A DNA stretch of 64,000 nt. Origin: Planctomycetota bacterium (GTDB lineage: Bacteria; Planctomycetota; Planctomycetia; Pirellulales; Lacipirellulaceae). A program made the translations under genes and the position numbers. The stretch spans positions 62,001 to 126,000 of the forward strand of contig JAJDEF010000012.1 in the NCBI GenBank assembly GCA_029259945.1, in the 5' to 3' direction. Below, in pieces: positions 42,127-51,841 of the stretch (positions are counted from its first letter, which is position 1; each line of letters begins with the position of its first letter). The notes under the pieces are model-generated. The model had not been told where the DNA came from, did no database searches, and saw only the letters and a program-made list of their open reading frames with translations.

Positions 42127-43839
42127 TTACTTCCCGTCTTTGGAAATGGCGAACAGGTGGGTTCGGTTACTGATGTAAAGTACGTTGTTTGCAACAATGG
42201 GTGTGCTGTACACACTGTTGCCCATGTCGCGGGTGCCGTAGTGTGGCTCCCATTCGCCTTCCACCTCGCGCATGGCAACCTCTCGATTTTTGGAATGCCG
42301 GAAGATGGCCACTTCGCCATCTTCGTCGCCAATATAGACTTTATCTTCGACGATTAGCGGCGAACCCCAAGCTGCGGCAAGCAGGTCGTAGGTCCAGTGG
42401 ACTTCGCCTGTTTTGGCATCAAGGCAGTGGAACAGCCCACTAAAATCTGCGATATAGAGAACCTGATCACGAATCGCCACGGTGCCGCAGCTTCGATGCA
42501 TTTGTTCCTCGAAGTCGATTTCACCATCGTGGTTTTGATCGAACTCGCTGTAGTGCCAAATCGCGGCAGAGTTTGGGTTCGGACGGGTGAGGTCGCCGTT
42601 TTCGGGCACCACCGCTTGAAGTCGTTGATGAGCAATTGGAATGTTGGGGTCTGAGGCGTTGAAAGCCAGATCAGGGCTAACATCTCCACGTCTTGTTGGA
42701 TCGATACACCAAAGATGCCCAACCCCCTCGCCATGCTCAGGGTCTTGCCCCACGGCAACGTAAACGCGCCCCTCGTGAATCACGGGGGTTGCGATGATAT
42801 TGTTTCTCGTGCCCCGACCTCCCAACTCCCAGACAGACCTTTTGGGGTTGGCGTCAAATTTCCAGAGCAGCTTTGATTTTCGCTCAGGAGTGCCGTCGGG
42901 ATCGAAACTATAGACCCAACCATCGCCCCCAGCAAAAATCACCTGGGGCTGGCCGCCCAAGACTCCATAAGAAGGCGACGACCACTGACCATGTAGAATG
43001 TTCACGCCAGGCGAGCTATCGCTCCACAGCAACTCGCCAGTCTTTTTATTCATGGCAAAAAAGCTTGGGGCTTCAGGAGCCGGGATGTAGTTATGTTCGA
43101 CATCTACGCCGTTCGAAGTATTCACAAACAAGATGTCACCGGCTGAGGTTACCGAGCAACTGCACATATTATGTTGCGAGATGCCCAGTTCTTTCATCAT
43201 GTCGAACACCCAAACCACATCGGCTTCGTCTTGGGCGTCGGACACTTCGTCTTGATAGGGCCCGTCATTTTCTTTGTCTGCAAAGCCAGAAGTGTCGAGA
43301 CAACGGACTTCGCCTCGGCTAGTGACAAACCACAGCCGAGTGCCCTCGACCAGCGGAGCACAACAAATTCCCTGAAGAGGCCAATCGTGAACTCGACCTG
43401 AAGGTAGTTTTTCGCTGCTGTGTTGCCATAAGAATTTCCCCGAATCTAAATCAAAACAGAGCAAGCAGCCAAGATCGACCTTAGCGGGATAACGCTCTAG
43501 CCATCCGCCGCTGTTATTGGTGCCGACGTAGATTTTCTCCCTCGCCACGACTGCGTTGCCGTAAGTTTGCGAGCCGAGCCGAGCAACCCATTTGATATTT
43601 TCGGCTTCGCTCGGATCCCATTTGCCTGTGCGATAGTCGAAGCTGCCGATGTTCCACTGCGTAGGGATCTGAAATCCCACCGGTGCGTTATTGCGATTTG
43701 AGTCGCCTCCCCATTGCGGCCAATCGAGAGTGGACTCTGCTTGCGAAACTTCGCCAGCCACGTAATCGAACCCCGCACCAGTCCACCAGCCAAGGGCGGC
43801 GGCACACAATAGCCAGAAGTATCGCCATTTTTTTTTCAT
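42127..43839 (-). CDS. PQQ-like beta-propeller repeat protein
   Basis: Signal peptide MKKKWRYFWLLCAAALGWW; repeated ...CLDAKTGEVHWTYDLLAAAWGSPLIVEDKVYIGDEDGEVAIF motifs. Confidence 0.9.
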   Translation of the reverse strand: MKKKWRYFWLLCAAALGWWTGAGFDYVAGEVSQAESTLDWPQWGGDSNRNNAPVGFQIPTQWNIGSFDYRTGKWDPSEAENIKWVARLGSQTYGNAVVAREKIYVGTNNSGGWLERYPAKVDLGCLLCFDLDSGKFLWQHSSEKLPSGRVHDWPLQGICCAPLVEGTRLWFVTSRGEVRCLDTSGFADKENDGPYQDEVSDAQDEADVVWVFDMMKELGISQHNMCSCSVTSAGDILFVNTSNGVDVEHNYIPAPEAPSFFAMNKKTGELLWSDSSPGVNILHGQWSSPSYGVLGGQPQVIFAGGDGWVYSFDPDGTPERKSKLLWKFDANPKRSVWELGGRGTRNNIIATPVIHEGRVYVAVGQDPEHGEGVGHLWCIDPTRRGDVSPDLAFNASDPNIPIAHQRLQAVVPENGDLTRPNPNSAAIWHYSEFDQNHDGEIDFEEQMHRSCGTVAIRDQVLYIADFSGLFHCLDAKTGEVHWTYDLLAAAWGSPLIVEDKVYIGDEDGEVAIFRHSKNREVAMREVEGEWEPHYGTRDMGNSVYSTPIVANNVLYISNRTHLFAISKDGK

Positions 43840-43900
43840 CGTGTTTCCTTGATCAACCGGTCGGGCTCTGTACCGAGGGGGTGCATCCGCACGGTTTGCG

Positions 43901-46177
43901 TTATTTGTTGCCGTAAACCGTGATGTTATCGAGATATATTTCTGCTTCTTGAGCGTTGCCATACATGCCGGGACTTCCCGTTCGATTCGGCGAATCATCC
44001 GTCATTTCGACGGTCCACTTCTTTGGTTCTGCTTGCCCTCGTTTCCAGAGTTTGCCACGGACTAACGCTTTTTCGCCGTCAGGCTCCACGCGGAGTTTCA
44101 TCGTGTACCATTCGCCTGGTTTCGGATCGAAGTTAACTACCGCAAACGCGCGATAATCGTGAGGGCTCCAACTATAAATACGCAGCTGCTTGTTCGAGGA
44201 ACGCACGGTCATCGTATACCGGCTGTTGATCAAACCGAAGTCAGGAGTTCTGCCGCTTTCTTCTGATTGGGTCAGAGAAAAATCGGCTTGGATCGTGTAA
44301 TTGGCCAGGTCAGTGGGTCCCATCCACAGCCGGCTACGTGTGCCAAGCTTATTTTCGGGATTGCGCGGAATTGGTAGCACACTCCTTTTAACCACCACCC
44401 TTTCACCATTTAGATCGCGAATGACGTAACGTACCCGCCCTCCTACCCAAGTGAGTGGCACCTTCTCAGCCGTATCGAAATCAAAACTCCAAGGCAACGG
44501 AGGTACAACCCGAATCCGTGCCGTGCCGTGCAGCTCGCCAACTTTCGCAACCACTAAGGCCGTCTGATGTTCGTTCGTATTTGGAGCGAGATAGACACCC
44601 TCGCTTTGCGAAATCTGCCCGCCTCCCTGCACCTCAAACGTTACATCTTCGAAGGGTACTTCGCGAAGGAATTGTCCGCGACTGTTGTAAAGTCGGACAC
44701 GATAGGCTTGGCTATCGCCCGGTACTAAAATTGCATCGTAGGGCACAATTTGGACTAGCGAGGGAGTAGGATCTTCGTTTGCTGAGGTTTCTGCCGGTGG
44801 AATAGGCAAAATATCGCCAGCAGATTTTTGGTCTGGATCACCTATGCAGTACAGCGCCGCAGAGGTCGGCAGATAAATGCGGCCGTGCGAGACAATCGGT
44901 GATCCATCGCTTGCTTCGCCCGCTAGGCGCAGTTTGTGCAAGACTTTGACGCCCGAGTCGGTGGGCTGCAGCACATACCAACGGCCATTGTTCGTACACA
45001 GGTAAACTTTGCCGTCGGCATAGAGCGGCGTACTGCGCATCGCTGTGCCAAGTGCCTTGCGAGCAATCCGCTGGCCCGTCTGCGGGTCGTAGATTGAAAG
45101 TTTTGCCCGATCATCAACAACCCATAGCCTGCCGTCGACCATGATGGGCGAGCTTTTGCCAGCCATCACCTCAAACTGAACCCAATTTTCTTTGTCGGTG
45201 AGATCGCCTGAGAGCGTTCCATCCAACGACACAAGCGAACCCATCGTAGTGCCAACCACATTTTCTTCGCTGTGCGAAGCATAGACGGTGTCACCCACCA
45301 CGAGTGGTGAGATATTCACCCCGCGACGAGAGATCGGGTAATGCCATATTCGTTCGCCGGTGCGTGGCTGTAGTGCCCAAATAGCCCCGTCGCCAGAGCC
45401 AAAGACCATCGCCGCTTGGCCGTCGAGCATCGTGATGGTGGGCGTACTGTAAGTGGTGTCGTAGGGAGCAATTTTCGTCCCCTTGAGCCAGCGCAGGCCG
45501 CCGGTTGCTTTATCAAAGGTTAAGAAACGATGGGCGGGCTTGGCAAGGGAGCCCCACTGCGGGGAATCGCCCCAGCCGATTACCACTGCACTGACGAGTA
45601 CCATGTCTTCAAACACCAAGGGGCTGTGTGTTCGGCCGCCGAATGTACTAAGCAGACCGAACTCTTCGTGCAGGCTGCGCTGCCAGACCACTTTGCCTGT
45701 ATCGCCCTCCAAGCAACAGAAATAGCCCGAGACGCTCAACGCATAGACGCGGCCTGTTTCTGGATCGCCCACGCAAGAAGACCATCCCACACGAGTGTCT
45801 GGAACGTCGGTTAAGTAAACATTAAAACGATGTTCCCAATGCTTTTTGCCCGTTGCTGCGTCAACACAAACGATTTTCGCCCCTTCGTGGGAAGTACCGC
45901 GTTGATCTCTAACAATCGTGTAGAGTCGACCCTGCATGACAATCGGTGTCGATCGACCGCCCAACGCCTCGTTCTTCCAGATCAGGTTGCTGCCTGGCCC
46001 ACCCTGGGGATCCCAGCGGTCAACGAGCCCTTGTTCGGTGGAAACTCGATTTTGTTGCGGACCCCGCCAGTTTGGCCAATCGGCCCCACCCTCGACGGCA
46101 AACACCAGACCGTTTCCACTCATCGACAATGCCCAACAAACTGCTAAGGCAGAGCATTGAACCAAAACGCGACTCAT
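43901..46177 (-). CDS. PQQ-like beta-propeller repeat protein with C-terminal LamG-like region
   Basis: WPNWRGPQQNRVSTEQGLVDRWDPQGGPGSNLIWK...; repeated propeller motifs (VVWQRSLHEEFGLLSTFGGRTHSPLVFEDMVLVSA). Confidence 0.88.
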   Translation of the reverse strand: MSRVLVQCSALAVCWALSMSGNGLVFAVEGGADWPNWRGPQQNRVSTEQGLVDRWDPQGGPGSNLIWKNEALGGRSTPIVMQGRLYTIVRDQRGTSHEGAKIVCVDAATGKKHWEHRFNVYLTDVPDTRVGWSSCVGDPETGRVYALSVSGYFCCLEGDTGKVVWQRSLHEEFGLLSTFGGRTHSPLVFEDMVLVSAVVIGWGDSPQWGSLAKPAHRFLTFDKATGGLRWLKGTKIAPYDTTYSTPTITMLDGQAAMVFGSGDGAIWALQPRTGERIWHYPISRRGVNISPLVVGDTVYASHSEENVVGTTMGSLVSLDGTLSGDLTDKENWVQFEVMAGKSSPIMVDGRLWVVDDRAKLSIYDPQTGQRIARKALGTAMRSTPLYADGKVYLCTNNGRWYVLQPTDSGVKVLHKLRLAGEASDGSPIVSHGRIYLPTSAALYCIGDPDQKSAGDILPIPPAETSANEDPTPSLVQIVPYDAILVPGDSQAYRVRLYNSRGQFLREVPFEDVTFEVQGGGQISQSEGVYLAPNTNEHQTALVVAKVGELHGTARIRVVPPLPWSFDFDTAEKVPLTWVGGRVRYVIRDLNGERVVVKRSVLPIPRNPENKLGTRSRLWMGPTDLANYTIQADFSLTQSEESGRTPDFGLINSRYTMTVRSSNKQLRIYSWSPHDYRAFAVVNFDPKPGEWYTMKLRVEPDGEKALVRGKLWKRGQAEPKKWTVEMTDDSPNRTGSPGMYGNAQEAEIYLDNITVYGNK

Positions 46178-46744
46178 GAGATGACAACCTCCAAGTGAGA
46201 GGACTCTCTACCGATGGGTTAGAAACGGATCAAGGCTTGGTCGACTAAAAAGCGAAGGTGAGGGCGGTAGTGGCAGGATCGCGAGTGAGTGGTGCGATGC
46301 AACCGGTCGTGTGAAAGTTTGACGGTTAAACAAAGATTACCGAAACAGGGGTGATTACCGGTTGTCTCTTGTCGACTACGTCCTGCTAGCCGCACCAATC
46401 GCAATTTGCCTAGAATAGCAGACTCTAGGGAGTTACGCCACGATCAGAGTAACTGATTTTTGGGGCTATAACCGACGCGAGTGTACTATCCTTCGTGGAC
46501 CGCAAATCTTGCCTAATGATAGTCCTAAGCCACTTGTCGAAAATTGCTTCTGGATGCTCAAGGGGCCGTGCGCAGGGGGCCGATAGGTTCTCATGTCGCA
46601 AGAAGGCTGAAAAGTTTTTTTGCGGCAAACCACTGTATGATGCGTCGATAAAACCGGCCTGTTTAATTTCGAGTCAAGGATTGGCTCGACTGGTATTGAC
46701 GCCTGACTGTGGGGACACACGGAAGAAACGAACCCCATGACCCT

Positions 46745-46760
46745 CGACCCATATGGGTCG
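46745..46760. promoter_or_regulatory. Perfect 16-bp palindrome upstream of the Cys-rich gene
   Basis: CGACCCATATGGGTCG. Confidence 0.35.
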
Positions 46761-46900
46761 CCCCCGCCAACCTATCCCATCGGGCGCAACGCCCACACAA
46801 GTCATCTCGACCAACCCAGGGAGGGTGCGGTGATTCGTTAAACCGAACACCATTGGTCCGTTCGTACTGTCGTCCCCAAAGGAATAGGAGACGTTATTCG

Positions 46901-47446
46901 ATGAAGTGGAATATGTTGGGAGCGCTCATCGTAGGCGTTTGTCTCACAGGCCAGAGTTATGGTTTTGGTTTGTTGGATACAATGCTTGGATGTGGCTGCG
47001 ATTGTTGTGAAGCCTCTTGTGGCTGTTCTGATGATTGTTGTGCCGATGGTTGCTGCGGTGACAACTGCTGTGACGATGGATGCTGTGGCGACAACTGCTG
47101 CGAACCAAGCTGTGGTTGTGCAGACAACTGCTGTGGAAACGATTGCTGCTGTAAGAAACGTAGCTGCGTCTTGAGCAAGCTGTTCAAGCGTAAGAATCGC
47201 TGCTGCTGCGAGCCAAGCTGTGGTTGCGACGATGGTTGCTGTGGCGACAACTGCTGCGAAGCCAGTTGTGGGTGTGCAGACGACTGCTGCAACGACGGCT
47301 GCTGCGGTGACAGCTGCTGTGGTGGTGGCTCAGCCGCTGCTGAGTCCAGCGAAGAAGCTGCACCGATTCCACCCGCGCCTGCTGCCGATCCAAACGCTCG
47401 GATCGCTCAGCCTCGCAAGGTAGTCAGCGCAAGTTTCGTTCGCTAA
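46901..47446 (+). CDS. Exported Cys/Asp/Gly-rich repeat protein
   Basis: MKWNMLGALIVGVCLTGQSYGFGLLDTMLGCGCDCCEASCGCSDDCCADGCCGDNCCDDGCCGDNCCEPSCGCADNCC...; signal peptide and repeated CCE[AP]SCGC / CCGD[NS]CC units. Confidence 0.85.
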   Translation: MKWNMLGALIVGVCLTGQSYGFGLLDTMLGCGCDCCEASCGCSDDCCADGCCGDNCCDDGCCGDNCCEPSCGCADNCCGNDCCCKKRSCVLSKLFKRKNRCCCEPSCGCDDGCCGDNCCEASCGCADDCCNDGCCGDSCCGGGSAAAESSEEAAPIPPAPAADPNARIAQPRKVVSASFVR

Positions 47447-47472
47447 CGCGGACAAAGATGGATCCCCCTCTG

Positions 47473-47515
47473 AGGACCTGTCTCGGGCTTTCGGGCTCGG
47501 GGCGGGTTCTTTTTT
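47473..47515 (+). terminator. Rho-independent terminator of the Cys-rich gene
   Basis: AGGACCTGTCTCGGGC-TTTC-GGGCTCGGGGCGGGTTCTTTTTT: about 16-bp stem with G-U pairs plus T-run. Confidence 0.85.
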
Positions 47516-47562: not shown

Positions 47563-48444
47563 CTATCCCGCACTCTTTCGATTTACCTTCATGAAATGCT
47601 CGTGCGGCATTTGCATCGCACTGACTCGGAAACCAAACTTGTCGCCAATTTTGACGGCTTCGCCCTCGGCCACTTCTTGGTCGCCCACATAAAGCTGCAG
47701 CAACTCATCGCATGCTTTGTCGAATTTTATGATCGATCCCATCGCGAGTTCGACCACCTCCTGGACCGATTCTTTTCTCGAAGCAAGCACCACGCGCACA
47801 GGAACCTTAATTTTTAGCAAACTGCGTGAATAGTCTGGCAATTCGGAAAAATTCTGAGGACTGCCCGCAGGCGTGTTAGCTTTTTCTGGTTGGCTGTTTT
47901 CCGGCTCGCTTGGCGACTCTTCTTCGCTGTCTGCTTCAGCGGTTGGTAACAATGCATCGGGGGATGCTAGCGGCCAAATCACACTCATCTGCGAGGTGGT
48001 GTCGCCACTACTTATTTGCAGCGGTACCAGGGCAGCGTCGTCCGCAATGCCTGCCGCCTTGAGGGCTTCGCCGATGACCGGAACTTGAGCTGCTTCAAAC
48101 ACGTCTGCCATTAACGTCTCGGGCACCAGCAGCATGCTCAGTTCCTGAGCCAGTGTGCTGAGCTTGCTCACCCCGGTAGGATCGGGGTTCGCGTACCAAT
48201 CTGGCAAGAGGCCGCTTGATTCGGGCAGAATGGCAACCACGCCGACGTCGCCAAACTTCATGAGGATTGCCAGCCCAGCCTTGTCAAAGCCATCGGGTGT
48301 CTCGGCTTCGTAGGTGGTTGGTTCACCCACCTGGAGCGTAAATTCACCGTCCAAAGATCGACTCAACGCACCAGAGGCTTCTTCGGCCCCGGCCTGGCAG
48401 GCAGAAACAACATCGGCGGCAAGGTCTGGAATTATTTCGCTCAT
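47563..48444 (-). CDS. FliN/FliY-like (SpoA domain) protein
   Basis: LLKIKVPVRVVLASRKESVQEVVELAMGSIIKFDKACDELLQLYVGDQEVAEGEAVKIGDKFGFRV is a SpoA domain; N-terminal CheC/FliY-like region. Confidence 0.8.
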   Translation of the reverse strand: MSEIIPDLAADVVSACQAGAEEASGALSRSLDGEFTLQVGEPTTYEAETPDGFDKAGLAILMKFGDVGVVAILPESSGLLPDWYANPDPTGVSKLSTLAQELSMLLVPETLMADVFEAAQVPVIGEALKAAGIADDAALVPLQISSGDTTSQMSVIWPLASPDALLPTAEADSEEESPSEPENSQPEKANTPAGSPQNFSELPDYSRSLLKIKVPVRVVLASRKESVQEVVELAMGSIIKFDKACDELLQLYVGDQEVAEGEAVKIGDKFGFRVSAMQMPHEHFMKVNRKSAG

Positions 48445-48728
48445 CGATCCATTCAACATCGGCAGGGACAAAAGCTTACGCCGTCGGCGCAGCCCTAGGT
48501 GGAGGGCTGCTCTAAGTATCGGACGAATTGATCGGCAAACTTTGCCCAGATCGTCTACATTGCAAGTGCTAGCTGCTGGGGCAGGAGCACTTTGCAAGCA
48601 TGTCAATCGGTTTCTAACCAGCCGAGAACCCTCTTTGGAAGGCAGCTACCCATCCTGTTTTTCGAAGCGTAGCAGGCTTATAATGGCTGAGAAGCCTGTA
48701 GTTTTTCCCACCAGAACCTGGATCCACG

Positions 48729-51526: not shown

Positions 51527-51841
51527 TTAGCCACGCACCTTGACGTCACCCTTACGATTGACAACAACCTTCACAGTGTGATCACAGCAGGCCCAGGTGT
51601 AGGTTGCAATCTGGCGACCAAACAACCCGCTACGCCAGCAGACGGTTGGCGCTTCGGTGCAACAACCTGGCACGCAGACAGTGACATTTTCTGAACAGCA
51701 GCTGCAAGGCGCCTGAACGCAAAGTGTCGTCTGAATGGGTGCAGGTGGGCAACAGCAGCGGGCATTGCCTGCAAAACTGTTGTTGGCCATGCCGGCCAAG
51801 GCGATCGCGGCAACAGCCGCAATAGTACGAATACGAAACAT
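51527..51841 (-). CDS. Exported Cys-rich small protein
   Basis: MFRIRTIAAVAAIALAGMANNSFAGNARCCCPPAPIQTTLCVQAPCSCCSENVTVCVPGCCTEAPTVCW...; signal peptide and 13 Cys in the mature part. Confidence 0.8.
   Translation of the reverse strand: MFRIRTIAAVAAIALAGMANNSFAGNARCCCPPAPIQTTLCVQAPCSCCSENVTVCVPGCCTEAPTVCWRSGLFGRQIATYTWACCDHTVKVVVNRKGDVKVRG

Follow-up and report, generated by a model that had tools for sequence, protein, structure and literature searches.

A Cys-rich exported protein encoded in the 64,000-nucleotide stretch of Planctomycetota DNA analyzed here (the window) is preceded by a promoter of the sigma-28/FliA type and by a leader of about 310 nt, in which a conserved, covarying hairpin displays A-N-GGA in its apical loop. 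Because the comparative evidence is strong, we consider it probable that the gene is under the control of FliA together with CsrA and FliW. The window is part of a 3.48-Mb draft genome, with Bythopirellula polymerisocia among the genus-mates and Adhaeretor mobilis in the same family of genomes. The features discussed below are, in window coordinates:

46557–46585, plus strand: promoter CTCAAG-N16-GCCGATA, sigma-28/FliA-like, with N16 in 38 of 39 orthologues
46594–46627, plus strand: predicted leader hairpin I (TGTCGC...GCGGCA), from minimum free energy (MFE) folding of the leader; mean z of the 5′ domain −1.8
46642–46703, plus strand: conserved covarying RNA hairpin, model R1 (match 46631–46710)
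46676–46682, plus strand: apical loop AAGGATT of this hairpin, with the A-N-GGA CsrA-type motif at 46676–46680
46709–46878, plus strand: domain closed by a predicted long-range helix (46709–46716 with 46872–46878), ending 7 nt before the Shine-Dalgarno (SD) sequence
46886–46891, plus strand: SD sequence AGGAGA, in the conserved translation start region
46901–47446, plus strand: coding sequence of the Cys-rich exported protein, ATG to TAA, 181 aa
46901–46963, plus strand: signal peptide region MKWNMLGALIVGVCLTGQSYG, conserved in the orthologue alignment, cleavage site presumed
46964–47320, plus strand: Cys-rich modular region, from repeats and composition
47147–47206, plus strand: basic module CCKKRSCVLSKLFKRKNRCC, from orthologue comparison
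47321–47443, plus strand: conserved Cys-free tail EEAAPIPPAPAADPNARIAQPRKVVSASFVR, from orthologue comparison
47472–47511, plus strand: intrinsic terminator, 18 pairs
48517–48544, minus strand: CAAAG-N16-TCCGATA, same promoter type, preceding the convergent fliN-like gene 47563–48447

Beyond its first 21 residues, the protein has 41 Cys among 160 residues (25.6%), together with 26 Asp/Glu and 12 Lys/Arg. In the mature protein, CC-acidic modules are combined with a single basic module and the Cys-free tail. The sequence-only reading had described an exported, modular, Cys-rich protein with a basic insert and a Cys-free tail, and the open reading frame, signal peptide, composition and repeats bear this out. 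The same reading had taken the terminator as a sign of high expression; the terminator is real, but it is a weak argument for high expression. Pfam, NCBIfam, and PDB searches returned no match for the window protein, and Pfam gave no metallothionein match for this protein or for the six orthologues scanned. Likewise, the window protein has no Pfam match to keratin high-sulfur B2. Among the six orthologues scanned, only one (L031, with CCEPVCCEPACC repeats) passed, with 97 bits for Keratin_B2_2 against a cut-off of 27, and this likeness is most likely a convergence in composition. AlphaFold with six orthologues gave no confident fold (pLDDT 43.5), and structure prediction therefore gives no reason to prefer a network to a metal-binding coil. 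The window contains another small exported Cys-rich open reading frame, of 104 aa (CCCPPAPIQTTLC...CCSENVTVC), at 51527–51841 on the minus strand; Pfam and NCBIfam searches with it gave no match.

Judged by sequence comparison, the Cys-rich protein is a member of a family that belongs to the order of Bythopirellula and Adhaeretor, where a genome normally has one orthologue. The protein is matched in 50 of 60 related genomes (E ≤ 0.001), and several of the seeming absences are search misses, as promoter or RNA matches point to diverged Cys-rich genes (L064, L185, and others). In one case, the proteins of two loci (L020/G003 and L036) are identical. The orthologues range from 181 to about 400 aa and share the N-terminus MKxxxxGALxxSxxLxxQSxGxxLLDxML. 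Their Cys content is 17 to 32%; CC pairs are frequent and aromatic residues few. CC-acidic modules, which vary in number, alternate with basic amphipathic modules (CCKKKRSCFLSKLFxRKxxCC), and most orthologues end in a Pro-rich tail, e.g., EAAPIPPAPAADPNARIAQPRKVVSASFVR. Outside the order, the N-terminal profile found nothing: a scan of 294 genomes of the phylum gave 15 matches, every one within the order. No genome has more than one confident match to the tail, and these matches lie solely on the Cys-rich protein; the idea that the tail is a general sorting signal was rejected on these grounds. The DNA itself carries the repeats of the protein, and poor conservation of the reading frame in spite of conserved DNA repeats had been named as an outcome that would refute the sequence-only reading. 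This outcome did not occur. The pairwise dN/dS between orthologues is 0.08 to 0.31, and therefore the protein is conserved and not the DNA repeat alone. A search for paralogues had also been suggested, and a second Cys-rich paralogue is present (MRNHLLLSTLGVAIALG...CCEPSCGCADDCC; G000:C15:163517–164008, minus strand; L055), as well as in two relatives (L024 and L028). This paralogue is without the tail. Its leader has TCAAG-N16-GTCGATA and its predicted structure differs; the same applies to the two relatives.

In the window, the Cys-rich gene is convergent with a gene for a FliN-like C-ring protein (47563–48447, minus strand), and a fliN-like gene is also near the Cys-rich gene in L034, L038, L056, L057, and L058. 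Divergent from the Cys-rich gene are two PQQ/quinoprotein-like genes (43901–46177 and 42127–43998, both minus strand). The former adjoins the Cys-rich gene in relatives from several families of the order, and this arrangement is therefore old.

The conserved promoter and the structured leader, just 5′ of the open reading frame, had gone unmentioned in the sequence-only reading. In the upstream DNA alignment of the orthologues, CTCAAG-N16-GCCGATA is positioned approximately 345 bases 5′ of the ATG (about 225 in two). The spacing between the boxes is exactly 16 in the 38 orthologues noted above, counting L032 with GTCGATA, and 15 in the remaining one (L056); 20 further loci all have N16. In four f15 loci, the −35 box, judged by eye, is ATCAAG or TAAAG. 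The exact motif occurs 74 times in 61 genomes compared to 16 times for the reversed control, and it also precedes fliG (L071) and a fliN-like gene (L072). With relaxed boxes, the motif was found before the fliN-like gene of the window, before fliN of L034 (CAAAGTTT...GCCGATA) and, in three of three loci, before the second Cys-rich paralogue. Most of the flagellin upstream regions examined have no clear copy of it.

Sigma-28 promoters have TAAA or TCAA(G) at −35 and GCCGATA(A) at −10. The boxes found here, with TCAAG, TAAAG, or CAAAG at −35 and GCCGATA at −10, agree with these. The textbook sigma-28 spacer is about 14 to 15 bases after TAAAG, and the 16-base spacer found here is thus one or two bases longer. 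This spacing may be a local form, since 16 bases also separate the boxes of the fliN promoters in these organisms. A generic sigma-70 promoter was considered and rejected, as none was found upstream of the Cys-rich gene. Collectively, a sigma-28 promoter appears to be the best identification for CTCAAG-N16-GCCGATA, and FliA would be the factor using it. Our literature search on sigma-28 in planctomycetes had no planctomycete work among the papers listed.

The transcript presumably starts a few bases after 46585. Folded alone, the window leader forms three domains: hairpin I, the covarying hairpin and the domain of the long-range helix. For the first domain, the alignment yielded no consensus fold. 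The covarying hairpin, GCGTCGAY..ACCGG..TCGAGTC-ANGGANN-GGCTCGA..CTGGT..GTTGACGC, lies about 250 bases 5′ of the ATG. In 33 sequences, 93% of the cells are paired and both sides have changed in 9 of 18 pairs, with 42 double-change cells compared to 12.7 in shuffles (0 of 500); sliding the pairing partners abolishes the covariation signal. Moreover, 28 sequences outside model building are 96.5% paired, with 13 such pairs and 42 such cells versus 8.7, in an alignment that was fitted to the hairpin model and is hence biased towards it. Many pairs change via G-U, a pattern that favors an RNA structure over a palindrome in the DNA. Of 148 genomes of the order, 111 have a match to the model. Each has a single copy, except that in G074 two contigs hold the same copy. 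In a wider sample of the class, the sole match outside the order has E = 0.005. The Cys-rich gene is downstream of the hairpin in 20 of 20 additional loci checked. The leader has no match to any Rfam family above the gathering score and, on this comparative basis, we consider that the hairpin is a previously uncatalogued RNA element.

The apical loop contains A-N-GGA in all 33 sequences and in 26 of the 28 (59 of 61 together), where the variable N is A, T, or C. ANGGAN is the loop of CsrA/RsmE sites (PMC7652899). The loop of these sites has six bases, whereas that of the leader hairpin has seven, and typical SELEX CsrA hairpins have a shorter stem. Nevertheless, the leader hairpin looks like a CsrA docking site, to which CsrA is predicted to bind.

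Bases 3′ of the hairpin pair with bases adjoining the SD sequence. Across 62 leaders, the mean pairing energy is −23.4 kcal/mol with the leader's own partner and −17.8 kcal/mol with the partners of other species. The own partner is better in 56 of the 62, in a control that leaves species relatedness in. The SD sequence AGGAGA contains GGA, as any SD sequence does. The part of the leader inside the long-range helix (46717–46871) is more stable than shuffled versions of itself, with a mean z of −2.5 in 41 leaders.

The flagellar regulators are encoded in these genomes. FliA passes the curated cut-off in 10 of 11 genomes. The C15 cluster of the window's own genome comprises flagellin, CsrA, FliW, a flagellin-family protein in the FlgL position, FlgK, and FlgN. 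The CsrA (PF02599, 90 bits) and FliW (PF02623, 105 bits) genes are located between flagellin genes. Loss of the Cys-rich gene along with flagella was not seen: two genomes (G041 and G048) have no Pfam flagellin match, yet the Cys-rich gene, FliA, and FlhA are present. In Bacillus, CsrA represses hag via two leader sites, one of which covers the SD sequence, and FliW relieves this repression (PMC7652899, PMC6529632).

These results suggest a model in which the product is an exported, repeat-built, thiol-rich structural protein that would belong to the flagellar programme of the motile daughter cell. FliA (sigma-28) would transcribe the gene from CTCAAG-N16-GCCGATA. The leader hairpin would present A-N-GGA to CsrA, with the long-range helix stopping just before the SD sequence. 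CsrA bound to the hairpin, and perhaps also to the GGA of the SD sequence, would hold off translation until, as in Bacillus hag, flagellin export allows FliW to titrate CsrA and translation is released. Once exported, the protein would form a charge-complementary network within the envelope or on the cell surface, as its CC-acidic and basic modules become oxidized and disulfide-linked. Within this model, we infer the use of the promoter by FliA, the binding of CsrA and its direction, the swarmer-stage timing, the disulfides and the location. The disulfide-crosslinked structural role is plausible, given the export, the composition, the alternation of acidic with basic modules and the timing by the flagellar programme; one orthologue (L031, above) even passes the Pfam cut-off for keratin high-sulfur B2 proteins. 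Taken alone, we give even chances to the protein being disulfide-linked envelope or surface material. The chances of the full model, with structural protein, FliA transcription, CsrA/FliW gating and disulfide network all combined, fall slightly short of even.

Alternatively, the leader could act as a riboswitch or sense some other ligand or protein, with the ANGGA loop not being a CsrA site and the role of the protein unchanged. Its length, the structure beyond the hairpin (the stability of its downstream part, see above) and the helix adjoining the SD sequence would suit such a sensor. However, the conserved bases of the loop are precisely those of A-N-GGA, N being variable, the remainder of the hairpin covaries instead of preserving a ligand pocket, and the genome has CsrA and FliW; we therefore regard a sensor as rather unlikely. 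That the hairpin is an independent small RNA merely 5′ of the gene, for instance one that acts in trans or as a CsrA sponge, appears improbable. The hairpin has its own promoter and a strong structure, and UTR-derived, sigma-28-dependent sRNAs that regulate flagella have been reported as a precedent (PMC10578931). Yet the Cys-rich gene follows the hairpin in the loci checked, sequence 3′ of the hairpin pairs with the region adjoining the SD sequence, and a sponge would need more than one GGA loop.

With respect to the protein, the CC and CxC clusters might capture extracytoplasmic Zn, Cu, or Cd, making it an exported metal sink or thiol buffer similar to a secreted metallothionein. The high Cys content, the many CC pairs and the few aromatics of the orthologues fit this function, to which we assign a low probability, slightly below that of a ligand sensor in the leader. 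We noticed no regulatory site of a metal type, flagellar genes have the same promoter motif, Pfam gives no metallothionein match and the oxidizing exterior favors disulfides. Moreover, a metal sink leaves the conserved Cys-free tail and the amphipathic basic modules unexplained. The low complexity and the variable number of tandem repeats could also be those of an ordinary repeat without a function of its own, an interpretation already refuted by the dN/dS values and by the order-wide conservation of the ends, the promoter and the leader. The thiol-rich structural protein of the flagellar programme hence remains our preferred interpretation. Its broadest form is an order-wide developmental switch, in which a new RNA element and FliA plus CsrA/FliW gating would govern a disulfide-forming envelope or surface protein found only in the motile daughter cell. 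We advance this form tentatively, as a possibility that is more doubtful than the model itself. If true, flagellar assembly would time envelope hardening, and synthesis of a surface protein would be tied to the swarmer stage of budding bacteria. CsrA regulation appears to have been hardly studied in the planctomycete phylum, and the leader offers a direct test of whether CsrA/FliW control anything besides flagellin in planctomycetes. Most of the genes behind the cystine-rich planctomycete walls of early chemical reports are missing. The present family, with one gene per genome, is open to tagging and deletion in cultured members of the order.

The chlamydial OmcA and OmcB are exported Cys-rich proteins of the PVC group that are tied to a developmental stage; their architecture differs from that of the Cys-rich protein, which has no Pfam match. 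Short CCxPx-type Cys repeats are shared with the keratin-associated high-sulfur proteins (Keratin_B2_2 and Keratin_B2), whereas the present family is bacterial and has a signal peptide. The sulfur-rich planctomycete wall proteins described so far carry YTV domains (PMC8567305, PMC10632474). Like the Cys-rich family, these proteins are exported, Cys-rich and planctomycete-specific, and a role in the wall has been proposed for them. The YTV tripeptide is absent from the translation of the window protein, and it is by this tripeptide that the two are set apart here; in contrast to the YTV-domain proteins, the family described here is confined to one order in the genomes sampled.

With regard to regulation, the promoter of Bacillus hag is a sigma-D promoter. 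The B. subtilis hag leader (PMC7652899, PMC6529632) and the present leader both have a sigma-28-type promoter. Both also have one or more CsrA-type GGA sites in a long leader with the SD sequence as the likely target, although CsrA binding is a prediction in the present case, and in both csrA and fliW are part of a flagellar cluster. The product of hag is flagellin, whereas here it is a Sec-type exported Cys-rich protein. Moreover, the hag leader is far shorter, and the leader described here adds the covarying hairpin and the long-range helix.
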